IMG/VR virus record: IMGVR_UViG_3300036981_000377
Location: 36,407-100,406 of that record
Direction: 5' to 3' (one strand)
Length of the DNA stretch: 64,000 bases
Source of the DNA: a virus
Shown: positions 3,026 through 39,546 of the stretch, piece by piece
How the letters are laid out: every line of letters starts with the position of its first letter
Numbering within the stretch: the stretch's first letter is position 1
The notes under the pieces: generated by a model
Database searches by the model: none
What the model was told of the DNA's origin: nothing
The model's input: the letters and a program-made list of their open reading frames with translations, nothing else
Position numbers and translations under genes: made by a program

Positions 3026-3096
3026 ATGCCCGACTAGGATTCGAACCTAGACTAAGAGAGCCAAAATCTCTTGTGCTACCGTTACACTATCGGGCA
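3026..3096 (-). tRNA. tRNA-Gln (UUG)
   Basis: The minus strand folds into a cloverleaf: a 7-bp acceptor stem TGCCCGA/TCGGGCA, a short D-arm, an AGAGA/TCTCT anticodon stem around the 7-base loop TTTTGGC (anticodon TTG), and a CTAGG/CCTAG T-stem with the canonical TTCGAAT loop. The 3' CCA is not encoded, so maturation would need a CCA-adding enzyme. It reads glutamine CAA. Confidence 0.93.
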
Positions 3097-4141: not shown

Positions 4142-4381
4142 TTAATGGACTTCGTGCAGTGAAATAAACTGCCCGTTTTTTACAGAAAGATCTACAGCTG
4201 CAAAACCGCCGGGTGATTGTACGGCGGCTGTTACGGCTGTGACAAGCTCTTTATAAAGCCGCTTGCCCGCACTTACCCCTAGCTTTGCAGTTAAAAAACC
4301 TTCAAGCATTATTGCTTTACCGGCTTCGTTTTTAACAGTCACGTCATTAATTGTCCACACTGCGGCCTTTTCGTCACTCAT
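4142..4381 (-). CDS. Unknown 79-residue protein coupled to hldE
   Basis: Its start at 4381 overlaps the hldE stop by 8 bases, with an AAAGG inside the end of hldE, so it is translationally coupled. The sequence (WTINDVTVKNEAGKAIMLEG ... GQFISLHEVH) suggests a small mixed alpha/beta fold. No motif is recognised. Tight coupling may mean a role near HldE, but that is positional inference only. Confidence 0.65.
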   Translation of the reverse strand: MSDEKAAVWTINDVTVKNEAGKAIMLEGFLTAKLGVSAGKRLYKELVTAVTAAVQSPGGFAAVDLSVKNGQFISLHEVH

Positions 4382-5882
4382 GGCTTTTTGCCTTTAATTT
4401 GTTCACAAATACGGTTGTGCTGCTATTTGGCACAAGTGCCACAAACACAACTTCTCCGGGTGGTTCTTGCCGACTCACGGCGTCCGCACCGACTACAAGC
4501 TTATTTACATAATCTGCTCCTTTAACAAGCACGTCTGGTTTTATTGTTTCGATTAAATTTTGCAATACCGAGTTGTCTGCGGTGTCGTCAAAGACGCACA
4601 CAGCGTCGACTACGTCTAATGCGGCTATATTGCCGGCGCGAGTCGTCTGGTCTTGCACAGGGCGGTCAGGGCCTTTGAGCCGCGTTACGTTGTGATCAGC
4701 GTCTACGGCAACAATGAGCGTGTCGCCGTGCTGCTTGGCCTGCGTAAGAAGCTCTATGTGCCCAGCGTGGAGCAGGTCAAAACAACCGTTGGTGAACACG
4801 ATTTTGCGCCCAACCCGTTTATTCCGCGCTACAAATTGCGCTAAATCAGCAACAGCCATAATGCGGCGTACTGGATAGTTTTTGCGCAATACTTCTCGAA
4901 TTAACTTGTCGGCGTTTAATGGCTTTGTGCTATTTGTTCGCACCCGTTGGCCAGCCGCAACAATCCCAAACTGCATGAGTTTGAGCATGTCATTTTCTGT
5001 GAGATCTTTAGGCCTATATTTGCCAATTTCTGAAAAGCCAAGAACAAGCCCAGCTAAGAAAGTGTCGCCAGCGCCTACACAATTCCCAGATGAGTACCGG
5101 CGCGGGGTAGGAACAAAGCAAGTCTCGGTGTGCCTGAGGCTATAAAAAACACCAGACCCGCCGTCCGTCACAATTAATAATGGCGTGCGTAAATGCACTG
5201 ACGCTATTTTAATAGCTTCTGTTAACGACTTAAACGGCCCAATCGTATCGGCAAACAGTAGGAACTCCGCCATGTTGAGCTTGATTACGTCAGCGCCCAT
5301 GTAGCTGAGCAAATGCTGCGGCTTAGCGTCAACGTAAATTGGCGCTCCCGCAGTGTGCGCGGCGTTCACAAGCATTTTGCGGGTAGCTTCTGAAATACAC
5401 CCTTTGCTGTAATCAGAGACTACTACGCATTTTGATTCTTTAGCTCGAATTAAAAAAGCCTGCTGATAAAATAAAGCAGCGTTTAATTCATTCGGGGTCT
5501 CTGCGTCATGTCGCGCTAAAATGTGCCCATTAGCGTTCACATAGCGCGTTTTTACAGGCGTACAAAAATCCTTAAAAACAGTAATAACGCCACAACAACT
5601 TACGTTTGCTCTGGCTTGCAGTCGCCTAAGCATTTCTTGCGTTTCTTGACTGAAGTCCACAACAGAGAATGCCGAGACTTTAAATTTGGCCTGGGCCAAC
5701 GCTTCAATGACAATGCCCACGCCGCCCGGCTTAATGACGCGGTCGTGAGCTGCGCTAATAAGAGCTACGGCAGCGTGCTCTGCGTTTTTCTTAGCCGTGT
5801 CTACATTCCACCACACGTCAACGAGCAGGTCGCCTATGCAGACGACCTGCCCGCGGTTGGTGTGTTTGCTTTCCGTGCTCAT
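4374..5882 (-). CDS. hldE: Bifunctional heptose-7-phosphate kinase / heptose-1-phosphate adenylyltransferase
   Basis: At 502 residues it has the full two-domain length of HldE. The N-terminal PfkB/ribokinase domain (about 1-330) includes the anion-hole and catalytic-base motif GAGDTFLAG (near residue 272) and an upstream DxK segment (YVDAKPQHL). The C-terminal nucleotidyltransferase domain carries TNGCFDLLHAGH (near 364) with the HxGH signature and RLKGPDRPVQ, as in known HldE. The enzyme phosphorylates D-glycero-D-manno-heptose 7-phosphate at C1 and, after GmhB action, forms ADP-heptose for LPS inner core. Starts as ATGA with the previous gene. Its pathway partner HldD is at 16467-17426; no GmhA or GmhB is seen here. 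Confidence 0.93.
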   Translation of the reverse strand: MSTESKHTNRGQVVCIGDLLVDVWWNVDTAKKNAEHAAVALISAAHDRVIKPGGVGIVIEALAQAKFKVSAFSVVDFSQETQEMLRRLQARANVSCCGVITVFKDFCTPVKTRYVNANGHILARHDAETPNELNAALFYQQAFLIRAKESKCVVVSDYSKGCISEATRKMLVNAAHTAGAPIYVDAKPQHLLSYMGADVIKLNMAEFLLFADTIGPFKSLTEAIKIASVHLRTPLLIVTDGGSGVFYSLRHTETCFVPTPRRYSSGNCVGAGDTFLAGLVLGFSEIGKYRPKDLTENDMLKLMQFGIVAAGQRVRTNSTKPLNADKLIREVLRKNYPVRRIMAVADLAQFVARNKRVGRKIVFTNGCFDLLHAGHIELLTQAKQHGDTLIVAVDADHNVTRLKGPDRPVQDQTTRAGNIAALDVVDAVCVFDDTADNSVLQNLIETIKPDVLVKGADYVNKLVVGADAVSRQEPPGEVVFVALVPNSSTTVFVNKLKAKSHE

Positions 5883-16466: not shown

Positions 16467-17426
16467 TTACCGGGCAGCAGCGCAAAAAGATTCCCGGTAG
16501 TTAGCTACGCCACGCTCAACAGAGCTAAAATTTAGTGCATATCCGGCCTGCCGAAGTCTTGTCAGGTCAGCTTGTGTGAATGGCTGATATCCTGCGCGTA
16601 ATTCGTCAGGAAATTTACGAATAATGATATCCGACTCTTTAGCGCCTGCCAGCTCAGCAATTCGCCTAAAGGTCGTGGCTTGCCCAGTGCCTACATTGTA
16701 GATCCCGCTTTTCTCGGAAAACTGTGCAAAATGTAAGGTTACGTCAACTACGTTATTCACGTGCACGAAATCTCTAGCTGCGGGCTCGCCGTCCTCGAAG
16801 ATAGTGACTGGCTCGCCGTTGGCTAAGCTGCGCAGGCACTGGTGCGGGAAACTCGCCATACGCCCTTTGAGCTCTTCTCCGGGGCCGTAGACGTTGAAGT
16901 AGCGCAGGCCCACTACTGGCGCCATTAGCCGAGACTTGCCCTCTGAGTCGTCGTACAGGCTCAGGTTAGCCGTCCGGCGAACGTAGTTGTCAAACATGAG
17001 CTTTGACGCCGCGTAAGGCGACTCGGGCTTTTCGAACTCGGGGGTTTCTTGAAAGCCAGCTTTTGCTTGCCCGCCGTATACGCTGGCTGAACTAGCGTAG
17101 ACCATGCGGCAGCCGTGCTCGATGGCTAACTCAAGCATGTCTTTTGAGAAGGTGAAATTTTGTTCGGCAAGAATCCGGCCGTTCGTAAACAACGTGTCGG
17201 AAATAGCGCCAAGATGAATTATGCCAGTGATGTTTTTTAGCGCCCGACCCTTACGCCCAAACTCGCGAAAGTCAAAATAGTCGGCAAAACGATACTGCGC
17301 TAACTTTGGCAGTTTACGGCCGTCTGACAAGTCATCTACAACAATGACATCATAGAAGCCGTTGTAGTTCAGCCGCGAAAGAACCTGCGAACCAATAAAC
17401 CCAACGCCGCCTGTAAGAACTAACAT
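16467..17426 (-). CDS. hldD: ADP-L-glycero-D-manno-heptose 6-epimerase
   Basis: 319 residues, the HldD length. Extended SDR fold: NAD(P)-binding TGGVGFIGS (residues 5-13), the YASSASVYGG catalytic Ser region (about 109-118), and the YAASK catalytic Tyr-Lys pair (about 138-142). Substrate-side blocks match HldD rather than other epimerases: GLRYFNVYGPGEELKGRMAS, RDFVHVNNVVDV and especially FPDELRAGYQPFTQADLTRL near the end. It converts ADP-D-glycero-heptose to ADP-L-glycero-heptose for LPS core. It completes the last step after HldE (4374-5882), though separated from it by 10.6 kb. Starts just after a terminator. Confidence 0.92.
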   Translation of the reverse strand: MLVLTGGVGFIGSQVLSRLNYNGFYDVIVVDDLSDGRKLPKLAQYRFADYFDFREFGRKGRALKNITGIIHLGAISDTLFTNGRILAEQNFTFSKDMLELAIEHGCRMVYASSASVYGGQAKAGFQETPEFEKPESPYAASKLMFDNYVRRTANLSLYDDSEGKSRLMAPVVGLRYFNVYGPGEELKGRMASFPHQCLRSLANGEPVTIFEDGEPAARDFVHVNNVVDVTLHFAQFSEKSGIYNVGTGQATTFRRIAELAGAKESDIIIRKFPDELRAGYQPFTQADLTRLRQAGYALNFSSVERGVANYRESFCAAAR

Positions 17427-21474: not shown

Positions 21475-21999
21475 TTAATAGGAAGCGTAGACAGTGCACG
21501 GTTTGCCGGTCTTAGCTTCTTTTAGTTCTGCTAGCGTCACAAAATCCCGAAAAGACTGAATGACAGCGTTCACGAGTTCTTCGCCGTCTTCAGGATAAAG
21601 GCTCAGACAGCGCTCGCGTACAGCTTCTTCTACCGTCATTGGGGTAGTCTTGCCCGACGCGGTAAATTTTGGCGTAACTGCGGTTCGGCCTATTTTTTCG
21701 CTCATTTCTGTTAAAAGCGCGATTAACATCATTGAGGTGTTGTGACCGCCATCGCAGTCCATAGCCGGCTCTGTAACATTTGTAAGTCGTTCTCGCATAA
21801 CGGCTGCTGGGATCTGCGCCTGACAGTCCTCGGCCTCGAACGCTTCCCGCACTAGAATCTTGGTGGCGTAAGGTCCGCCGTGATACGCCTCGCGCAGATA
21901 ACCTACGGCACCGCTGGTCGTAGAAAATCCGCAATCGGTTTGCTTCTTCTTGTCTTTTTTAGACTGTCGCTTCCACTTAAGATAGATATCAATTCCCAT
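21475..21999 (-). CDS. Conserved MGIDIYLKWK family protein
   Basis: 174 residues from the ATG at 21999 (AAAGGG 5 bases upstream); a longer frame to 22065 would run through the terminator at 22025-22054 and is rejected. The N-terminus MGIDIYLKWKRQSK and the block GAVGYLREAYHGGPYATKIL match an unnamed conserved family seen in bacteria and phages. The C-terminal half is helical and ends with TLAELKEAKTGKPC. Function unknown. Confidence 0.8.
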   Translation of the reverse strand: MGIDIYLKWKRQSKKDKKKQTDCGFSTTSGAVGYLREAYHGGPYATKILVREAFEAEDCQAQIPAAVMRERLTNVTEPAMDCDGGHNTSMMLIALLTEMSEKIGRTAVTPKFTASGKTTPMTVEEAVRERCLSLYPEDGEELVNAVIQSFRDFVTLAELKEAKTGKPCTVYASY

Positions 22000-22014
22000 G
22001 ATTCCCTTTCTGCG

Positions 22015-22054
22015 TAAAAAGAAAGAGGGCGCCGGGTACAAACCCAGCGCCCTC
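22015..22054 (-). terminator. Rho-independent terminator after 22089-22385
   Basis: A 13-position stem GAGGGCGCCGGGT/ACCCAGCGCCCTC with one mismatch and a 4-base loop. On the minus strand it is followed by TTTCTTTTT. It sits 35 bases beyond the stop of the secreted 98-residue protein. Confidence 0.85.
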
Positions 22055-22088
22055 CGTGGCGTCATTTCTCGCCCGCGTTAAACGTCGC

Positions 22089-22444: not shown

Positions 22445-22837
22445 CTACTTAGCAGCGCTTTGGATAAAAGCTGTGCAAAATCCAAAGATACCTTGTAGCT
22501 CCTCAACATAGGGCGCTCGGCCCCATTCTCTTTGGTACGTGCGCTCAATCCTTTGACGCGCGCGTTCCAGTAATTGCTTGTGGATCAGGTCTATCTCGTC
22601 GTCCAAGACAGGCTCTCCCATGAACGCCCTTTGGACGGCGTCTTTATAGCTGGGGTCCGTGAGTTTATCAAGCATCGTACCCACGACCTTGTCCAGAATA
22701 TCTGCGGGCTCATCGCCGTTGTAGTAATTTTCTGGAGAATCTTTGCCGGGCATGTGATTCTCTAGAACTGCTCCGTCACTACCGCGCGAAGACCAATTGA
22801 TTCCACCAGTCGCACCATCGATTCGCCACCAACCCAT
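22445..22837 (-). CDS. Conserved MGWWRID family protein
   Basis: 130 residues. The N-terminus MGWWRIDGATGGI and the block YYNGDEPADILDKVVGTM match a small conserved family that I recall from planctomycetes and proteobacteria (MGWWKID...GDGPAD). The rest is helical with EWGRAPYVEELQGIFGF. It lies immediately downstream of the VWA gene, past the hairpin at 22888-22918. Function unknown. Confidence 0.72.
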   Translation of the reverse strand: MGWWRIDGATGGINWSSRGSDGAVLENHMPGKDSPENYYNGDEPADILDKVVGTMLDKLTDPSYKDAVQRAFMGEPVLDDEIDLIHKQLLERARQRIERTYQREWGRAPYVEELQGIFGFCTAFIQSAAK

Positions 22838-22925: not shown

Positions 22926-25900
22926 TTAGTCCGCTGTTACGTCAACAAGGTTCTTCTCTTTGTGGAGAGCATTGCGCAAGAACCGCACGATTTGCGGGAG
23001 GCACTGCCTTACCGTCGAGAGAAAGACTATGTTATCTTTGCCGTATTGTTCCTCGAATGCGGGGTAGTCGTATTCGGGAACGCCGACAGCAAACGCGTAA
23101 GTCGGTATTTTCAAACGATTGCGTACAAATGAACAAACGCTCGTTACATGCTTTTTAGCTTCGTCACCGGCATATCCGGAGCCGTGAGGTAACCCGTCGG
23201 AAATCACAAATAGATATTTACGCTTAGCTGGATCTTTATCGAGCAGCTTTGCCGTTTCTTTAATAGCGTAACCGTCGTAATTGTTTGCGTGCGCGGCAAT
23301 TGACCCTAATCCGTCAAGATTAGCGCTAGCTGCCGGCCCGTAAGAGCTGTAGTGCTCGAACAATACGAGGTCTGCTTGGCTTGCCTGATTTGCGGTATGC
23401 CCGTAAATATGCAAGTGCACGCCATCAATTTTCTTAACGGCTTCGGCCAGCAGTACGCACATTTCTCGCGCCTGCTCGATCTTGCCGCCCGACATACTGC
23501 CCGATTGATCAACGAGAATACCCACGGCCACGTCTGGCAACTTAGTGATCAGCTTCTGCGACCAGATATGCTCAGAGTCATACCTTAGTTTATGCAGACT
23601 GCCTTCGTCTAAGTCACCGGACAGCATCCCGTGAACCTCGCCTGTTCGCTTAGTTCCTTGAAAACGCAGCGCGCTACGGATTTTCTCGATAGCCGCCTTG
23701 TTTTTTGTCCTTATTGCGTGCGTTATTGCCCGCCAAGGAGTTGTATTTTTAAGCGGCGGTTTAACCCGCAATTTTGGCTTTGTGGAATCTGCGTTATCCA
23801 AGTAAGCCACATACTCTTCCTCGGCGGCGTTGCGCGCTTCATCGTTAACCTGTGTAAGCGCTTCGCCGTTTAAAATCTTAGTTTTTCGCTCAACCGTTTC
23901 ACCGAAGAGCTGTTCGTCAACCGGGCTCAGCTTGGCGAGATCGTCAAACTTTTCGCGGAGCATTTTGCCTAAATTTTTTGCGTCATCGGCGTCGTCAGCG
24001 TGGTTAGCAGCTTTTGCTTTTTCTGCTGCGTTTAACTCGTCTAACAGCTCTTGCGAAGACATCCCAAGCCCGGCGGCGGTTGCTTCAAATTTTGTTTTTA
24101 CGGCTTCGTCTAAACGCCCAGCAGCTGCTGGCATGCCGGTATTTTCAAACATTTTGCGCAGAATCTCAAATAGTTCTGGATTTGCCGCCGCTGCTGTCGT
24201 GGCTTGAAATCCGGCGTCTGACATAGCCTCCTGCGCCATAAAATTATCAATAGCGCTTTCGTGCCATGAGTCTATTTTTGCCGCGTCGCCTCTTTCAAAA
24301 TTGTAGTGACCACTTGCGGCGTCGTTTATGAAATTTTGAAAAGGCCAAGAACGACCACCTGATCGAGAAATTCGATCTGTTGTTGACCGACACTCGCCGA
24401 GGCCTTCAGCAAATCTTCGCCGCGAACTGCTACAAAAAGATTGCAGCCCAGAAGCTGTTTTGCCAATGGTTGCTGTTTTATTTTGGAGCTCTTCTACGTT
24501 ACTTTTAACTTGCGCTAAATTTGCTAGTTTACTGTCGGTAAGCTTTGCGATTAGTTCTGCAGTTTCGATTACATCTGCCACCTCGCTAAATTTTTCAGCT
24601 GTTTCTTGCAATTTTGCGCGGCAGTCATGCGCTTGTTGTTTAATCGCCTCTAGCAGGTTTTGCGTATTCGGCATCTCATCTGCAATTTTTTGCAACGCCG
24701 CTGCGGCTCGCTCCCGAGAAACCCGCATTTCGTCTTTAACCAGCTTGCTAGCTTCTTTGATAAAATTGCGAAGATCTGCTGCCTGTTTTTTGAATCGTTC
24801 AGGCGCCGGTATTTCAGCATACTTTTCTTGAAAAATATCTTGTTTGACGCCTGCTTTGTTTAAATCTGTAATTTGTGCGTCAAAATGCGCGATGGTCTGC
24901 TCTAGCGTTCTTTGCCAATAACGTATGTCGTTCTCTGGAGTTTTTACCTCCGCGGCGGACTCAAAACGTTTAGCAGACTCTCGTAAATTTTTAAGCAATT
25001 TTTCTTTGTACTTTGTGTTGTACAAATCTTTTTCAATATTTTCTAGCTCGTTCAGCGCATCTGTATTAGCGGAAGCGCCAACTCTATTTTCATAAAGCCC
25101 GTCTAGCAAATCGGCAAAATCTCCCATGTTGTTACGCATGGTTTCTGCGTCTTCTGCTGAACAGCTTTTTTCTTTCTTGATCTTCTCGAGCATTTCTTCA
25201 AGGCCGGCTGTAAGCGCGTTTTCGAACGCTCCGCTTTCGGGCTCGCCTTTTGCTGCAAGATGCTTGCGCAGGTCGGCAATAAGCAGCTGGCACGCCGGCA
25301 ATATTTCATCATGCTCGAGCTTGTCGCCCAAGTTCTTTTCTACGATACCGTTAATGTCTGCCGCGATCGCAATTTCGCTTTCGTCGGCAATCATGTTGTA
25401 GGCAATTCTGGCTACGAGTGTCTCCACTGAAATTTCGTCTGCCTCCAGCTTTTCGCGAGTTGTCGCAAATTGCTTGGCGTGGCGGACAAAATACGGAGCA
25501 AAACCACCCCAGTCAGTTACTACCTCGCGGCGACAGAGTCTGGTTAGCAAGCTCTTTGCAAGCACGCCAGCCAAATAGCTGTCGATAAATTCCGCTGAAA
25601 TATTCTTGGCGTCTTCGCTGGCCAAGGCCGACGACGCGGCTGCTTCACGAACTTTGGCAGCCAACGCACTCGGCAATGTTTGAATTGACAGCTTGTTGAT
25701 TTTAGTGATCACCTTTTGCGCGACAGACTGAGAAATCTGTACTCGTAAAAGTACAAACCCGGTCAGCGCGTCAATTACGGCGTCCTCTTCGTCAACAGTC
25801 TTAGTGCCGACCAATTTGTCAGGAGATACAAAAATTGCTCGCTTTTTGCCGTCGAGCAAATTGGCCGTAACACCATTGCTGTCGGTGCCGTTGCTAAATT

Positions 25901-26303
25901 GCACGTCGTAGCTAATTTTCTTACCAGCATCTACCAGCGTATTTGCGTTGCGCGTTAGAACACGCAGCGCTCGAATAGCTTTATTTTTAGCTTCGTTGTC
26001 GCCGGAAGAGGCATAACGCGCAAATCCAACAAATGAACTACGAAACAAACTACTCGGCGAATAATCGCTGTACTTGCTGTATTTGAAACTGCTTTGGCGG
26101 TACCAAGAATCGGCTGAGTCGTCAAAAGCTCTTTTGTAAGAAAAGCTGTCGGCGTTATACCTGTCTTGGTCAGAACTTTTTTCGTCATCATCGTGAAACT
26201 GCCCCCACCAACCAAGATTTTCACTAGACTTTTTATCGTCTTTGTCGTCATCTTGGTCTTTGATCGGGTCGTCCCACTCAGACCTAAAAGATTCCCAGCC
26301 CAT
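22926..26303 (-). CDS. Large VWA-domain protein, CobT-like partner of the AAA+ ATPase
   Basis: 1125 residues. The N-terminus (1-90) is acidic, Tyr/Ser-rich and disordered-looking. Residues about 95-250 form an alpha/beta domain, 380-650 a long run of Ala/Glu/Lys helices (coiled coils), and 700-850 more helices. The C-terminal VWA domain has the complete MIDAS: ILVDQSGSMSGGK (about 925-937), a Tyr-Asp/Thr loop (NNYDGYAIKETA) and ISDGLPHG. Layout and MIDAS match the CobT/CbbO/MoxR-partner class. Four bases separate it from the ATPase upstream. The complex would remodel or load a metal or protein client; the client is unknown. Confidence 0.85.
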   Translation of the reverse strand: MGWESFRSEWDDPIKDQDDDKDDKKSSENLGWWGQFHDDDEKSSDQDRYNADSFSYKRAFDDSADSWYRQSSFKYSKYSDYSPSSLFRSSFVGFARYASSGDNEAKNKAIRALRVLTRNANTLVDAGKKISYDVQFSNGTDSNGVTANLLDGKKRAIFVSPDKLVGTKTVDEEDAVIDALTGFVLLRVQISQSVAQKVITKINKLSIQTLPSALAAKVREAAASSALASEDAKNISAEFIDSYLAGVLAKSLLTRLCRREVVTDWGGFAPYFVRHAKQFATTREKLEADEISVETLVARIAYNMIADESEIAIAADINGIVEKNLGDKLEHDEILPACQLLIADLRKHLAAKGEPESGAFENALTAGLEEMLEKIKKEKSCSAEDAETMRNNMGDFADLLDGLYENRVGASANTDALNELENIEKDLYNTKYKEKLLKNLRESAKRFESAAEVKTPENDIRYWQRTLEQTIAHFDAQITDLNKAGVKQDIFQEKYAEIPAPERFKKQAADLRNFIKEASKLVKDEMRVSRERAAAALQKIADEMPNTQNLLEAIKQQAHDCRAKLQETAEKFSEVADVIETAELIAKLTDSKLANLAQVKSNVEELQNKTATIGKTASGLQSFCSSSRRRFAEGLGECRSTTDRISRSGGRSWPFQNFINDAASGHYNFERGDAAKIDSWHESAIDNFMAQEAMSDAGFQATTAAAANPELFEILRKMFENTGMPAAAGRLDEAVKTKFEATAAGLGMSSQELLDELNAAEKAKAANHADDADDAKNLGKMLREKFDDLAKLSPVDEQLFGETVERKTKILNGEALTQVNDEARNAAEEEYVAYLDNADSTKPKLRVKPPLKNTTPWRAITHAIRTKNKAAIEKIRSALRFQGTKRTGEVHGMLSGDLDEGSLHKLRYDSEHIWSQKLITKLPDVAVGILVDQSGSMSGGKIEQAREMCVLLAEAVKKIDGVHLHIYGHTANQASQADLVLFEHYSSYGPAASANLDGLGSIAAHANNYDGYAIKETAKLLDKDPAKRKYLFVISDGLPHGSGYAGDEAKKHVTSVCSFVRNRLKIPTYAFAVGVPEYDYPAFEEQYGKDNIVFLSTVRQCLPQIVRFLRNALHKEKNLVDVTAD

Positions 26304-26307
26304 TTAT

Positions 26308-27903
26308 TTAAGCTCCCTTCTTTGTCGCCTGCGCGGCTGCCCTGGCTGCAAGCAAGTCGCCGAACTTGCCCTGAATAATGTTCTGCACGCGAACACGCTC
26401 GCTATCATCGTCGCCGTCCGACGAGAAATGATTGCTGATCGTGAAAGTCAAAGTTTCTACGCCACCGATAGCGAAGTCGTGCGCGGCAGCGATAAGCTGA
26501 CGTGTCGACATGCTTTCGGTAAGGGAGGCAGACAGTCCACAAGCGTCCTGCCGAATCTTATTAGCCATACCCACAAGGCGGCTGGCAATGTCTTCATTGA
26601 CCCCGACGCGCTTAACGAGAAGCTTGATCTCGTCAGCCTCGCCCAGATACGTCAGTTCGACAACGCGCGGAAAGCGGTCGCGAATGGCGCGGTCGAGAGC
26701 CGATGTACCCGTGTAACCAGCGCCTTCGTTCATAGACGCAAAGAACACAGTACCCGGACCGACCATAATCTTATCACCCTTCTCCTCGAGATACGTAAAA
26801 CGACGAGCGTCGAGCAGCGGCATTAACGTATTGAGCAGGTGCGGATTAGCACGATTGAGCTCGTCGAGCAGGACGACGTGGTTACCAGCCTCGACAGCCT
26901 TTACGAACTGACTCTCGTGCCAATAGACCGTACCGTCCCGAGCCGTCTTGTAGCCGAACCAATCACGAGCCTCGCGGAGATTGGCGCAGTCCATGATCAG
27001 CAGCGGCAGGTTAAGCCGAGCCGCAAACTGGATGGCTAGCTCAGTCTTACCGCAGCCGTGAGGGCCGATTAAGTTAATGTTCTGCGGGCAGTTCTTTCTG
27101 GAAATCTGCAGAATCTTGAAAAGTTGAGCGACCTGCTCGTTGATGATGTAGGTTTCGTCAGGCTTAGGCAGAAATACGCCGTTGGATTCTGCCTCGTCGC
27201 GAGTATCGGCAGTAACATCTTTAACCTTTAATTCAGGCTTTTCGGCAGTGCCAGAAAGCCGGCCAAAACCAAAACTTACTGTGGCTGTCGCCATGCTCTT
27301 GTCTTCTGGTTCCTCAAGTACTTCGGTTGCAGTGACGTTCTCAATCTCCGGCCGCGGTCCGTCGGCGTCGCGGCTCGACCAGCCAACGCCGGCCGGGGTT
27401 GCGCTTAACACACTATTAAGCAATTTTTTGTTGTTGTTGACAATTTCAGCAATTTGTTCGATATAGCTAAACCCGTCAGGCATTGCCCGCAAAAGAGCTA
27501 AAGGCTTATTAAGGCCCTCAGCAATAGCGCGCAGCTGCACGCTCATGCTTTTAGGCAGGCTGTCAAAATATTCTCCGGGCAATGTGTTTAGAACTTCGTG
27601 GATGACTGCGCCAAGATGCCGAGTCATGGCGTAATCTTCATTTGGCGCGTTTGCCACCTCTGGTTCAATTTTTCCGTCTGCAATTGCAGCTTTCATATCG
27701 CCCGGGTCACGTAGAAGATCGCGGTCGACATTAGCGTGTGGAATTGAGGCAACGTGGAACTCGAGCGCTCCGACGCAGCACTTTGCGTGATTTTTTGCTG
27801 GGCGACCGCGAGTAGACGGCAGCAACGCCAGCGGCTCCCAATTCGAGTAATCGGCATCAACAGTCGCGTCGGGCTTTTTGTTGCTGGCTACGTAAAGATA
27901 CAT
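26308..27903 (-). CDS. MoxR/CobS-type AAA+ ATPase
   Basis: 531 residues. Residues 1-270 carry a helical, variable N-terminal part that includes a basic segment (TRGRPAKNHAKC). The AAA+ core follows: Walker A GPHGCGKTELA (about 279-289), Walker B HVVLLDELNRA (about 342-352), sensor 1 VFFASMNEG and the arginine-finger segment ALDRAIRDRFPRVVEL. The lid shows ASLTESMSTRQLIAAA. The residues are intact, so it is probably active. It belongs to the MoxR/CbbQ/CobS group, which partners with VWA proteins such as the one 4 bases downstream. Confidence 0.9.
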   Translation of the reverse strand: MYLYVASNKKPDATVDADYSNWEPLALLPSTRGRPAKNHAKCCVGALEFHVASIPHANVDRDLLRDPGDMKAAIADGKIEPEVANAPNEDYAMTRHLGAVIHEVLNTLPGEYFDSLPKSMSVQLRAIAEGLNKPLALLRAMPDGFSYIEQIAEIVNNNKKLLNSVLSATPAGVGWSSRDADGPRPEIENVTATEVLEEPEDKSMATATVSFGFGRLSGTAEKPELKVKDVTADTRDEAESNGVFLPKPDETYIINEQVAQLFKILQISRKNCPQNINLIGPHGCGKTELAIQFAARLNLPLLIMDCANLREARDWFGYKTARDGTVYWHESQFVKAVEAGNHVVLLDELNRANPHLLNTLMPLLDARRFTYLEEKGDKIMVGPGTVFFASMNEGAGYTGTSALDRAIRDRFPRVVELTYLGEADEIKLLVKRVGVNEDIASRLVGMANKIRQDACGLSASLTESMSTRQLIAAAHDFAIGGVETLTFTISNHFSSDGDDDSERVRVQNIIQGKFGDLLAARAAAQATKKGA

Positions 27904-28010
27904 GTGCAGTCTCAGATGGGTTTAGGGGGTAAGTTTGCGCGTATCGGCTAATTTCTCTCTCGGTTTTCCAACGCGGCAAAGCCGGTGTCAAGCCGAGCCA
28001 TTTTTGCGGC

Positions 28011-28062
28011 CCAAAAAAGAACCCCAGCGCAGATTGCCCGAAAAACGGGGTCTGCGCTGGGG
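28011..28062 (-). terminator. Rho-independent terminator after 28088-28825
   Basis: A 12-bp perfect stem CCCCAGCGCAGA/TCTGCGCTGGGG with a 17-base loop, followed on the minus strand by TTCTTTTTT. It lies 26 bases past the stop of the acidic HTH protein, so the AAA+/VWA pair downstream is a separate unit with a promoter in 27904-28010. Confidence 0.88.
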
Positions 28063-28087
28063 CCTATCGAATCTGTTTAGCGAAGCC

Positions 28088-28825
28088 TTAGCTGCGCTGG
28101 ATTACCTTCTTGCAGATACCGAGCAGCTCGATTGCGTGATCATAACTGCCGGCGGCGTGCATAAACTCTGCCGCGGTCGCGAGCATATCACCCGATAAAG
28201 TCCCCGCTGCCGGTTCTAGCTTTTCAGCAACCTTGCCCGCGCGAAATTTTGCTGTGGGGCGGGTTTTCTCGTGCTCGCCAGTCGTCTCTGCAATTGCCGC
28301 GGTGGGCTTGCTCTTTGGCTTGGCACCGCCACCGCGCTTTGCCGCCGGGACGCCCATCGCGCGAAGCGTAATGGACACCTGCGAAGCGTTTACTTCAATA
28401 CCTTTTTTCTTTAACGTTTCAATGATGTCGCGAGGTCGCAGTTCGACCCCGCTTGCTTTCCGTGCTTCAATTACAGCGCGAATAGATTCAGCCTTTGTTG
28501 TCTTACCAACAGCCTTTGTTTTAGGCATTTTACTACCTTTGGGGTTGGCCTCTAAAGTCGCGTCAGCTTCTTCTTCGGCGGGTTCGTCTTCATTATCAGC
28601 CTCGTCCTCCGAATCATCTTCTTCAAGATCTTCGGCAGCCTCGGCTACAGGTTCATCCTCCGCAACATCGTCGACGGTTTCGGGTTCCTCTTCGTCGCCG
28701 GTTTCTACATCATCCGCGATCTTAGCCGCTTTTTGTTGCTGTAGATATTTTTCGCAACCATCGTCGTCGCTAAAACCATCTTCCCAGCAACTTTCAGCGT
28801 CCGTTACGTTTACTTGCCTAACCAT
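28088..28825 (-). CDS. Acidic protein with a central HTH-like domain
   Basis: 245 residues. Residues 30-95 are almost entirely Asp, Glu, Ala and Val (disordered, like an acidic DNA-mimic or histone-chaperone region). Residues about 105-155 (KTTKAESIRAVIEARKASG ... PRDIIETLKKKGIEVNASQVS ... LRAMGV) read as a winged-helix or HTH fold that I have seen in planctomycete proteins (RDIIE.LK..GIEVS..QVS). A Lys/Pro-rich linker and a C-terminal helix (AAEFMHAAGSYDHAIELLGIC) follow. Likely a DNA-associated regulator; the targets are unknown. Confidence 0.72.
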   Translation of the reverse strand: MVRQVNVTDAESCWEDGFSDDDGCEKYLQQQKAAKIADDVETGDEEEPETVDDVAEDEPVAEAAEDLEEDDSEDEADNEDEPAEEEADATLEANPKGSKMPKTKAVGKTTKAESIRAVIEARKASGVELRPRDIIETLKKKGIEVNASQVSITLRAMGVPAAKRGGGAKPKSKPTAAIAETTGEHEKTRPTAKFRAGKVAEKLEPAAGTLSGDMLATAAEFMHAAGSYDHAIELLGICKKVIQRS

Positions 28826-28942: not shown

Positions 28943-29338
28943 TTATTTTTGCTTTGCGGCTTTTTTGGCTGGTTTTTGCGGCAACTTTTTTGCGCCCTTT
29001 GGCACAGTTCCGTTAGGTCCGCGCAGCCTATCCTCATTCAACTCCGGCCACATCTTCAGCGAATGAATAGCGCCAACGATGTTCCAAACCGCGTGACCCA
29101 AATCATCTTCGTCACGTTTTCCAGCGAGGAATTCAAAAATATGCCGTAAGGCGTGGTTAATTAGATCCACTGCCGGCATACCGTTTTCCCAGTTAAACTC
29201 GCCAAACTTTTGCGCGCCTTCCGCATATGCGCGGGCTAACGCCTCGAGCCCAACTGGCGAAATCAAGTCGTAGCGGACAGCGTTGCAGTCGGTGCTGCGA
29301 ACGGCGCCGGTTTCATACTTCTTGTACTTGTCGCTCAC
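28943..29338 (-). CDS. DUF5664 dATP/dGTP diphosphohydrolase-like protein
   Basis: 131 residues. The conserved core is RYDLISPVGLEALARAYAEG, KFGEFNWENG, DLINHALRHIFEFLAGKR and DEDDLGHAVWNIVGAIH, with the His and acidic residues of a MazG-like or HD-like metal site (EDDLGH). The family is annotated in phages as dATP/dGTP diphosphohydrolase. The last 25 residues are a Lys-rich tail. With the MazG-type enzyme at 16079-16387 it points to nucleotide-pool control. Confidence 0.82.
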   Translation of the reverse strand: MSDKYKKYETGAVRSTDCNAVRYDLISPVGLEALARAYAEGAQKFGEFNWENGMPAVDLINHALRHIFEFLAGKRDEDDLGHAVWNIVGAIHSLKMWPELNEDRLRGPNGTVPKGAKKLPQKPAKKAAKQK

Positions 29339-30860: not shown

Positions 30861-31043
30861 TTAACTTGCCCGGTCCGAGGTGACGAGCTTAAAAAGCCCG
30901 TAGGTCAACTGACAAATACCAACAGCAAGTGCGCAGACGCCATAAACAAACAGTTTCACGACTAGGCCAACGCCGTCCTCGAGCCACTGCAACTCTGCAT
31001 CGTTTTTACCGCGGTAATAATTTCCGTTCTGGTAGTGACCCAT
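30861..31043 (-). CDS. 60-residue membrane protein divergent to the terminase
   Basis: Starts at 31043 in a CATATG shared with the terminase start on the other strand; longer readings overlap the terminase. The N-terminal 25 residues are charged (YYRGKNDAELQWLEDG) and two hydrophobic segments follow (LVVKLFVYGVCALAVGICQL, about 29-48, continuing TYGLFKLV). No ribosome site is obvious. A terminator follows it, so it is a one-gene unit. Function unknown; holin-like only by size. Confidence 0.65.
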   Translation of the reverse strand: MGHYQNGNYYRGKNDAELQWLEDGVGLVVKLFVYGVCALAVGICQLTYGLFKLVTSDRAS

Positions 31044-32969
31044 ATGACACCCAATTTGTTGCAGGATAACGCGCTGCTGCGTGAACAAAATTTTGAGATA
31101 CCGGACAAAGGTATTCGCCACCTTGTTCAAGAATTGATGAGTATGGACTGCACCGACGCGCATGCTATAAACGCGCGGGCAGGCATATTATCTGAACTCG
31201 CTAATAAACGCTTTTTCCCATCCTTGGAGCCGTTGCTTCCGTTAGTGCTTAATCTAAACGGTAAGCCGTATAACCTATCTGGACATTACCCGTTTGCCCC
31301 ACTTTTCAGGCTGCTTATGCCTAAAAATTTGGTGCTAAAAACAGGTCGGCAGGTTTCTAAAAGTACCTCACTAGCTGCGCACGGCGTTGTGCTGGCCAAC
31401 TGCCTGCCGTTCTTTAAAACTCTGTACATCACGCCGCTGTACGAACAGATTCGCCGTTTCAGTAACAACTACGTGCGATCATTTATTGATCAGTCGCCGA
31501 TCAAAAGTCAGTGGTGCGGCACTGACACTGAAAACAATGTATTGCAGCGTTCGTTTAAGAACAAAAGCATTATGTTGTTTAGCTTTGCTCTTCTTGATGC
31601 TGATCGCGTCCGCGGTATAAGTACTGACCGCGTGGTTATGGACGAGATTCAAGACATGGATCCCGACCACATTCCGATCATTCAAGAAACGATGTCGTAT
31701 AGTCGATACGCGATGCTTCACATGGCCGGGACCCCAAAAAGTCTGGACAACCCGTTAGAGGGCGCCTACAAACGCTCAAGCGGCGCCGAGTGGTTCATTC
31801 CGTGTGAGTCGTGCCGATACTGGAACATACCGTCAATCGATCACGATCTCGATAAGATGATCGGGCCGTACAACATTCACATTAGTGAAAAATATCCGGG
31901 AACTGTCTGCGCAAAATGTCAAAAGCCAATTAACCCGCGTTACGGCCGATGGGTTCACCGCAAAGAAAACCAGCGCTGGCAATTTGCTGGCTATCACGTG
32001 CCGCAGCTTATTTTACCGTTGCATTTTGCGGACCCTGAAAAATGGTCTGCGTTGCTCCTAAAGCGTGAAGGCTTTGGCAACATGACGCAGGCGCAGTTCT
32101 ACAACGAAGTTTTGGGCGAATCTGTTGACGCGGGCCAAAAACTCATTACAGAAACCGAGCTTAAAGCCGCATGCTTGTTAGAGTGGCCAAACAAAAAAGA
32201 ACCAGAACCAGAAATTTTCAACAACATCAAAAACTACAAGCACCGCGTCATGGCCATTGACTGGGGCGGAGGCGGTGACGAGGGTATTTCATTTACTGTT
32301 ATTACAGTTCTTGGTTTTAGATACGACGGCTCAATTGACGTACTCTGGGGCAAGCGGCTCTTACTTGGATCAGAGCACCTAGCCGAAGCAGCCGAGTGCA
32401 TGAAGTGGGCGCAAAGATTTAAGATTGATTACGTAGCGCATGACTATACAGGCGCCGGAACTGTTCGCGAAACCGTAATGGTGCAAGCAGGCTTTAAACT
32501 TGAGCGTGTCATGGCTATTCGCCTTGTCCGAGCGGCTAGTCAGGACGTCATGGTGTTTAAAGAATCTACGCCAATTAATCATCGGCAGCATTACTCACTC
32601 GACAAGACTAGGTCACTGCTGTACACGTGTCAGGCTATTAAGCTAAAACGTGTGCGCTTCTTTAAATATGACTGGGAATCGCAAGACGATCCCGGCCTTA
32701 TTGCTGATTTCTTAGCGCTTGTAGAAAACAAAACAGAATCGCGCATGGGCGGCGACATTTACACAATTACGCGCAATACGCTGCTTAGTGACGATTTTGC
32801 GCAAGCTGTGAATATAGGATGTGCCGCTATTTGGCACATTAACGATGCTTGGCCTAATTTTGCCGAAATAGCCGGCGTAGGCGCGATTAGTCAGCAACAG
32901 GCGCAAGGGCAAAACCCTGAAGACTGGGCAGACGACGACATGGGTGGTCGCTTTTTTGGTCAGCCGTGA
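31044..32969 (+). CDS. terL: Terminase large subunit (packaging ATPase/nuclease)
   Basis: 641 residues from the ATG at 31044 (a GTG at 31035 is possible). The ATPase domain has a variant Walker A, GRQVSKSTS (about 101-109), and Walker B VVMDEIQD (about 197-204) with the expected catalytic Glu, then motif III-like HMAGTPKS. Between the domains is a zinc ribbon (CESC ... CAKC, about 252-293), as in lambda gpA-type terminases. The nuclease domain starts at VMAIDWGGGGDEG (about 400) with further acidic residues at HDYTGAG and the C-terminal ADDDMGG. It translocates and cuts genomic DNA at the portal. No small subunit, portal or capsid gene is visible nearby. One of three plus-strand genes. Confidence 0.93.
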   Translation: MTPNLLQDNALLREQNFEIPDKGIRHLVQELMSMDCTDAHAINARAGILSELANKRFFPSLEPLLPLVLNLNGKPYNLSGHYPFAPLFRLLMPKNLVLKTGRQVSKSTSLAAHGVVLANCLPFFKTLYITPLYEQIRRFSNNYVRSFIDQSPIKSQWCGTDTENNVLQRSFKNKSIMLFSFALLDADRVRGISTDRVVMDEIQDMDPDHIPIIQETMSYSRYAMLHMAGTPKSLDNPLEGAYKRSSGAEWFIPCESCRYWNIPSIDHDLDKMIGPYNIHISEKYPGTVCAKCQKPINPRYGRWVHRKENQRWQFAGYHVPQLILPLHFADPEKWSALLLKREGFGNMTQAQFYNEVLGESVDAGQKLITETELKAACLLEWPNKKEPEPEIFNNIKNYKHRVMAIDWGGGGDEGISFTVITVLGFRYDGSIDVLWGKRLLLGSEHLAEAAECMKWAQRFKIDYVAHDYTGAGTVRETVMVQAGFKLERVMAIRLVRAASQDVMVFKESTPINHRQHYSLDKTRSLLYTCQAIKLKRVRFFKYDWESQDDPGLIADFLALVENKTESRMGGDIYTITRNTLLSDDFAQAVNIGCAAIWHINDAWPNFAEIAGVGAISQQQAQGQNPEDWADDDMGGRFFGQP

Positions 32970-34862: not shown

Positions 34863-34935
34863 AGCCGGCGGTCGGACTCGAACCGACGACCTGCTGATTA
34901 CAAATCAGCGGCTCTACCAACTGAGCTACACCGGC
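34863..34935 (-). tRNA. tRNA-Thr (UGU)
   Basis: The minus strand folds into a full cloverleaf: acceptor GCCGGTG/CGCCGGC with one wobble, D-arm GCTC...GAGC, anticodon stem GCTGA/TCAGC around TTTGTAA (anticodon TGT), and T-arm GTCGG/CCGAC with loop TTCGAGT. The CCA end is not encoded. It reads threonine ACA. Confidence 0.93.
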
Positions 34936-39324: not shown

Positions 39325-39546
39325 TTAAGTTGCCGGCTTTGACATCTTCATAGTCGGCGACAGCGCTGCTCGTTGCGCGCTGATGTCAAACTTAAATTTG
39401 CTAATTAGCTCTGTGCGCAATATTGGCACGTCTGGTGCTGTCTCGATGCCGATTTTTACCGCGCCGTTTTTTAGCTCTACTACAGTTATCTTGACGTTAT
39501 TGCCAATTTGAATCGACTCGTTTAACCGCCGCGTTAAAACTAACAC
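39325..39546 (-). CDS. csrA: CsrA/RsmA-type RNA-binding regulator
   Basis: 73 residues. The sequence follows CsrA closely: MLVLTRRLNESIQIG (beta1/beta2 with Leu4), VKITVVELKNGAVKIGIETA (beta2-beta4), and PDVPILRTELISKF with the RNA-binding arginine at position 44. CsrA dimers bind GGA loops in mRNA leaders and repress or stabilise target mRNAs. The C-terminal 23 residues (DISAQRAALSPTMKMSKPAT) extend past the usual 61-residue E. coli form. A phage copy could reprogram host carbon metabolism, motility or biofilm genes, or act on its own GGA-containing leaders. Confidence 0.93.
   Translation of the reverse strand: MLVLTRRLNESIQIGNNVKITVVELKNGAVKIGIETAPDVPILRTELISKFKFDISAQRAALSPTMKMSKPAT

Follow-up and report, generated by a model that had tools for sequence, protein, structure and literature searches.

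A 64,000-nucleotide stretch of the viral record IMGVR_UViG_3300036981_000377 (bases 36407 to 100406 of a record of 100,406 bases; hereinafter, the window) carries two adjacent genes, one encoding a MoxR-type AAA+ ATPase and the other a large partner protein with a VWA domain and its MIDAS (metal ion-dependent adhesion site). An AAA+/VWA pair in a phage is not new: this pair is an already known and widespread viral module with two published interpretations. Tailed viruses widely encode cobST, which was proposed to hijack host CobN (PMC8651126), and a MoxR-vWA chaperone pair with an N-terminal metallopeptidase was described in jumbo phage group 2.2, with a role in virion assembly proposed (PMC7824862). 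What is new is the subtype, in which the ATPase belongs to a separate viral clade, the VWA partner lacks the HExxH motif, and, in a focal group of nine loci that includes the window, the partner carries a long arm. The initial annotation correctly identified a MoxR/CobS-type AAA+ protein with a VWA partner, and its overall interpretation is partly supported, but it missed that the pair is a known viral module. The pair and its parts are as follows.

26308 to 27903, minus strand: MoxR-type AAA+ ATPase, 531 amino acids, with an N-domain (residues 1 to 180), a disordered linker (181 to 240), and an AAA+ core (241 to 531)
27043 to 27066, minus strand: Walker A (GPHGCGKT), core residues G280, G283, G285, K286, and T287 invariant in 18 relatives
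26860 to 26877, minus strand: Walker B (VVLLDE), D347-E348 invariant in the 18 relatives
26665 to 26691, minus strand: arginine-finger segment, residues 405 to 413, R410 and R413 invariant in the 18 relatives
26500 to 26508, minus strand: sensor 2 STR (S466-T467-R468), invariant in the 18 relatives
22926 to 26303, minus strand: VWA/MIDAS partner, 1,125 amino acids, with a CobT-like C-terminal part (Pfam CobT_C, E = 2.6e-10)
26004 to 26303, minus strand: acidic, disordered N-terminal tail, residues 1 to 100 (predicted local distance difference test [pLDDT] score below 50 for residues 1 to 80)
25269 to 26003, minus strand: N-terminal domain, residues 101 to 345, a probable degenerate zincin metallopeptidase domain (hhalign)
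25734 to 25748, minus strand: LRVQI, residues 186 to 190, at the HExxH position of other phages in the alignment register
23934 to 25268, minus strand: long helical/coiled-coil arm, residues 346 to 790 (~450 amino acids), found only in the focal group
23541 to 23645, minus strand: pre-VWA hairpin with GDLDEGSLHKL, a candidate pore-inserted finger, strongly conserved in the clade
22929 to 23531, minus strand: VWA domain, with fold matches to the NorD VWA (E = 7e-9) and the Rea1 MIDAS (E = 4e-5)
23496 to 23510, minus strand: MIDAS (DQSGS), within the VWA domain

The ATPase gene precedes the VWA gene, with 4 bases between its stop codon and the VWA ATG; the reading frames and their spacing are as first described. 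Both genes are real and under purifying selection relative to the near relative L002, because identity is high and the ratio of nonsynonymous to synonymous substitution rates (dN/dS) is low, with 97% identity for the ATPase (dN 0.016, dS 0.216, dN/dS ~0.07) and 81% for the VWA protein (dN 0.109, dS 0.476, dN/dS ~0.23).

In a tree of AAA sequences, the window and its IMG/VR relatives form a 23-row clade (SH-aLRT 97) that, as sampled here, lacks any cellular sequence. The nearest sequences are from Bacteroides, gut, jumbo, and Microcystis phages, and lying apart are CobS together with Rhizobium, SSU5, cyanophage, and Pelagibacter phage sequences, NorQ/CbbQ, and MoxR; the tree is a quick one, without bootstrap and with several long branches, and its deep joins are unsure. 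Searches with tblastn returned 103 phage records for the ATPase and 29 for the VWA protein, a Rhizobium-phage CobS query returned 501 phage records, mostly cyanophages, and a scan of genome contigs turned up just four relatives, all distant and either cellular or prophage. A simple borrowed role, with close homologs found only beside cobalamin or CbbQ/CbbO genes, had been considered in the initial annotation; the homologs instead occur in many unrelated tailed viruses.

Inside the clade, HExxH is present in none of the 34 VWA partners (31 after 90% dereplication), compared with 17 of 19 outside it, the two exceptions being L053, which is cut by a contig end, and L076, which has HE without the HExxH spacing. 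Loss of the motif in the clade is established, and a single loss of the zincin motif would be the simplest account, because the neighbors of the clade in the tree, from Bacteroides, gut, and jumbo phages, bear HExxH. HExxH-less clade members also occur in the jumbo-sized contigs L103 (381 kb) and L109 (479 kb).

The N-terminal domain likely descends from an active peptidase domain. A clade-wide profile of the domain matched a broad set of HExxH phage domains with an hhalign probability of 77% (E = 2e-5) and a set restricted to three close outgroup proteins with a probability of 56% (E = 1.2e-4). The alignment runs across the position of HExxH, occupied here by LRVQI, and on through a later LEDxR/PGF segment, in which the third-ligand Glu is likewise missing. 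Weighing against this descent, the homology rests on probabilities of 56 to 77%, and narrower profiles of the domain gave no significant match to single HExxH phage groups. With a masked position-specific scoring matrix, the candidate site came out as one of the top two in most focal proteins, though close to the shuffle level; of these approaches, the clade-wide profile alone lent support.

The ATPase matches phrog_249 (“porphyrin biosynthesis”; E = 3.4e-39) and the Pfam families AAA_5 (E = 2.1e-21) and CbbQ_C (E = 3.7e-7); it scores 30.7 bits against CbbQ_C (PF08406; cutoff, 20.6), and yet its branch is separate from NorQ/CbbQ in the tree. The best fold matches of its AlphaFold model (pLDDT 77) are NorQ and CbbQ (template-modeling [TM] score of ~0.87 by target; CobS structures may postdate the library searched). 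By sequence, it is closest to midasin, NorQ, and CbbQ, with NorQ at E = 5e-22 versus CobS at E = 1e-9, the midasin score being a sum over several AAA modules. The Walker A, Walker B, and arginine-finger motifs first reported as intact are invariant in the 18 relatives, as is sensor 1 (N392).

The VWA protein scores 40.8 bits against PF11775, the CobT C-terminal VWA (cutoff, 21), and matches phrog_1576, phrog_17276, and phrog_5298, two of which are labeled CobT or cobalamin. Its AlphaFold model (pLDDT 76) bears out the acidic N terminus and long coiled-coil middle described from the sequence, with residues 1 to 100 disordered, helices over residues ~331 to 790, and a VWA fold at the C-terminal end. 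The MIDAS is intact, as claimed, with D932, S934, and S936 invariant and T970 and D1036 nearly invariant in 16 relatives. The finger hairpin is modeled as strands 887 to 893 and 913 to 921 with a low-confidence tip; the segment has a related stretch in other phage partners and aligns with its CobT equivalent.

VWA proteins of the focal group are 1,124 to 1,173 amino acids long versus 593 to 792 elsewhere in the clade, and in the AlphaFold model the extra length is the helical arm. This arm is the fastest-evolving and least conserved part, with 70% identity to L002 versus 93% for the VWA domain. Because its dS against L002 is the highest (0.72 versus ~0.1 to 0.4 in the rest of the pair), recombination may contribute to its divergence. 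Such fast evolution could also mean an arms race, as expected of a conflict module in which a MoxR-vWA system blocks host defense or rival phages, and the bpMoxR model of MoxR-vWA-propeller systems scores just above its cutoff (28.1 versus 27 bits). However, Pfam scans found no effector domain on the VWA protein and no VMAP, iSTAND, or propeller gene among the pair and its neighbors, PADLOC showed nothing beyond weak matches near Walker A, the families that match best consist of phage pairs, and every focal contig covering the spot has the pair. We consider a conflict role improbable; as a candidate, a defense or conflict system was rejected after PADLOC and Pfam gave no convincing result.

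The PHROG labels, which read porphyrin or cobalamin, and the VWA and pre-VWA finger region, which is CobT-like (E = 6.4e-15 for the family profile against solved CobT), could be taken to favor a vitamin B12 auxiliary gene, in which viral CobST with host CobN would raise cobalamin, e.g., for ribonucleotide reductase, as proposed in PMC8651126. The ATPase, however, reaches only 27.4 bits against the CobS model TIGR01650 (cutoff, 558.55), below its GvpN model score, and the tree parts the clade from CobS. The CobT N-terminal domain (PF06213) was not detected in the VWA protein of the window, whereas the SSU5 phage protein matches at E = 2e-37. CobN was found in none of 25 viral records, including the whole 100-kb record, and ribonucleotide reductase in none of the nine focal records; positive controls were found in both searches, and the records may be incomplete. 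The claim that no chelatase is present thus holds for CobN; for RuBisCO, said to be absent as well, no family appeared in the Pfam scans, which included no dedicated search. Because CobN is missing from the 25 records and ribonucleotide reductase from the focal ones, we argue against a B12 role, which, given also the CobS model and the tree, we rejected and regard as very improbable. For this clade, we advise against the B12 label.

Compared with the phage pairs described previously (PMC7824862 and PMC8651126), the window pair shares the side-by-side arrangement of the AAA+ and VWA genes, the PHROG families, the candidate pore-finger motif, and the MIDAS but differs in lacking HExxH, in its separate viral AAA clade, and in the ~450-residue arm of the focal group. 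NorQ/NorD (and CbbQ/CbbO) give the best fold matches for both the AAA protein (TM 0.87 for NorQ) and the VWA domain and share the layout of N-domain, linker, finger, and VWA; identity is nevertheless ~26%, the tree branch is separate, the arm and N-domain are larger in the window, and no nor or cbb genes were seen. Midasin (Rea1/Mdn1), a eukaryotic single chain of ~4,700 to 4,900 residues with six AAA modules that strips factors from complexes, has the top sequence score when summed over those modules and a similar MIDAS domain.

Because the pair retains the ATPase motifs, the MIDAS, and the pore-finger motif, a remodeling mechanism like that of NorQD or midasin is likely by analogy. In the published NorQD model (PMC13036017), the finger of NorD reaches into the pore of NorQ, and the linker undergoes twisting. 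Similarly, the AAA+ protein would form a ring, with the conserved GDLDEGSLHKL finger of the VWA protein inserted into its pore, and the VWA protein would hold a client via its MIDAS site and N-terminal part. ATP hydrolysis would make the VWA domain turn relative to the N-terminal domain, pulling on the long arm that lies between the two, and this pull, if passed to the client complex, could remodel it or take it apart. In most other phages, where the N-domain has the zinc-peptidase motif, client cleavage may be a further function of the machine; in the clade, where the motif is gone, the N-domain is probably a binding platform. The closest solved structures, NorQ and NorD, would also suit a machine that inserts a metal or cofactor into an enzyme of the phage or its host, as NorQD does with nitric oxide reductase, but family scans recognized no candidate metalloenzyme among the neighbors, and midasin, which has no metal-inserting role, falls within the same close fold. 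We judge such insertion to be improbable.

We tentatively propose, with somewhat less than even confidence, that the pair is an ATP-driven protein-remodeling machine whose client is most likely an early or replication-phase protein complex, because the pair sits among replication genes in unrelated phages. DnaE lies near it in RHph_X66, SSU5, PhiR41_1, and Cantare; primase, helicase, and polymerase in ICP2; gp46/gp47 and the clamp loader in P-RSM1; SbcC and the clamp in HTVC008M; primase/DnaB in Gray; PolA and a nuclease in L050; and DNA ligase in L109. In the whole-genome annotations of ICP2 and Cantare, the pairs fall within the replication half and apart from the genes for the virion. Several points weigh against this proposal. 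In Camerico, AM24, Mel-JY01, and HCTV-2, the genes flanking the pair, or its AAA gene, include none for replication; the neighborhood sample was partly chosen by eye, and its pattern has no random-placement null; and the nearest recognizable genes in the focal group are a MazG-like hydrolase and the terminase large-subunit gene (terL), not replication proteins.

The immediate surroundings of the pair are as follows.

31035 to 32969, plus strand: terminase large subunit (phrog_675, E = 3.7e-55), 73 to 99% identical in relatives
28943 to 29338, minus strand: MazG/dATP-dGTP diphosphohydrolase-like protein, a conserved near neighbor with relatives in L002 to L004, L008, and L034
28088 to 28825, minus strand: acidic helix-turn-helix (HTH)-like protein, 245 amino acids, the constant upstream neighbor of the AAA gene in relatives
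28010 to 28064, minus strand: terminator-like hairpin with a 14-pair stem and T-run, between the HTH gene and the pair
22445 to 22837, minus strand: 130-amino-acid protein, a frequent downstream neighbor, with relatives after the VWA gene in L002, L003, L005, L013, L035, and L043

The terminase large subunit marks the record as that of a tailed phage, judging from family matches, and a similarity search with TerL found no close isolate. The constant neighbors in the focal group are the acidic HTH protein, the MazG-like hydrolase (assigned from sequence by Pfam dGTP_diPhyd_N and MazG matches in the protein set holding the gene), the 130-residue protein, and terL on the other strand; a relative of the 130-residue protein was not recognized downstream of the VWA gene in L008 or L034. 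The HTH gene, which the initial annotation placed in the neighboring unit and proposed to seek beside the pair in other phages, occurs once in each of the nine focal-group records searched. It is a constant neighbor in its own transcription unit and not an operon partner, because the terminator-like hairpin separates it from the pair. Stems occur at the matching spot in L002, L003, L013, and L035 with mostly different sequences, the hairpin being kept as a structure.

In every focal contig covering both, the pair lies ~3 kb from terL, as might be expected of a virion-assembly chaperone remodeling a capsid, tail, or packaging complex. That role was proposed for jumbo phages (PMC7824862), and a chaperone role was proposed for p618/p892 of ATV, according to its citation in PMC7911831; this viral AAA+/VWA pair differs in belonging to an archaeal virus and in being linked to tail development, and its ORF892 matches by fold only weakly (E = 3e-4). 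Against this role, terL is on the opposite strand and the pair forms its own transcription unit, the pairs of ICP2 and Cantare lie in the replication half, and the peptidase motif, presumed to serve in the processing of structural proteins, is absent here. Because of the terminase neighbor we keep virion assembly in consideration, as an unlikely reading.

Elsewhere, the left part of the record encodes PolA, primase, RecA-like, SMC/SbcC-like, and uracil-DNA glycosylase families (family scan), and the record also has thymidylate kinase. The window also encodes a CsrA-type global regulator (39325 to 39546; PF02599, E = 2e-19 in the scanned set, assigned from sequence), an HldE-like bifunctional heptose kinase/adenylyltransferase (4374 to 5882), an NAD-dependent epimerase (16467 to 17426), tRNA-Gln (3026 to 3096), and tRNA-Thr (34863 to 34935). 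A second terminator-like hairpin (22024 to 22065) overlaps the first codons of the listed open reading frame 21475 to 22065, whose true start is probably a later ATG (MGIDIYLKW). The large serine-run and cysteine-rich proteins of 43391 to 64000 are probably tail or surface proteins; the ones that were scanned gave no clear match to a family.

The pair is thus real, ordinary in kind, and new in subtype. In marine cyanomyoviruses, cobS belongs to the core genome, and it is routinely listed among the B12 auxiliary metabolic genes (PMC3037559 and PMC2984593). In the clade described here, which is entirely viral in the sample, motor and VWA finger persist throughout without CobS identity or the peptidase motif, in focal records without ribonucleotide reductase or CobN, and a B12 role is therefore hard to fit. 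The subtypes with and without the peptidase motif form a natural pair for probing what the viral machine does. More broadly, and with considerable doubt, we suggest that these proteins may represent a viral-only AAA+/VWA class whose VWA partner, peptidase-bearing in its ancestral form, has turned into a client receptor of the pseudo-peptidase type and gained a very long lever arm, the machine acting on the phage replication apparatus and not on B12 or the virion. If so, phage “cobST” genes at large would be misnamed replication-phase remodelers.

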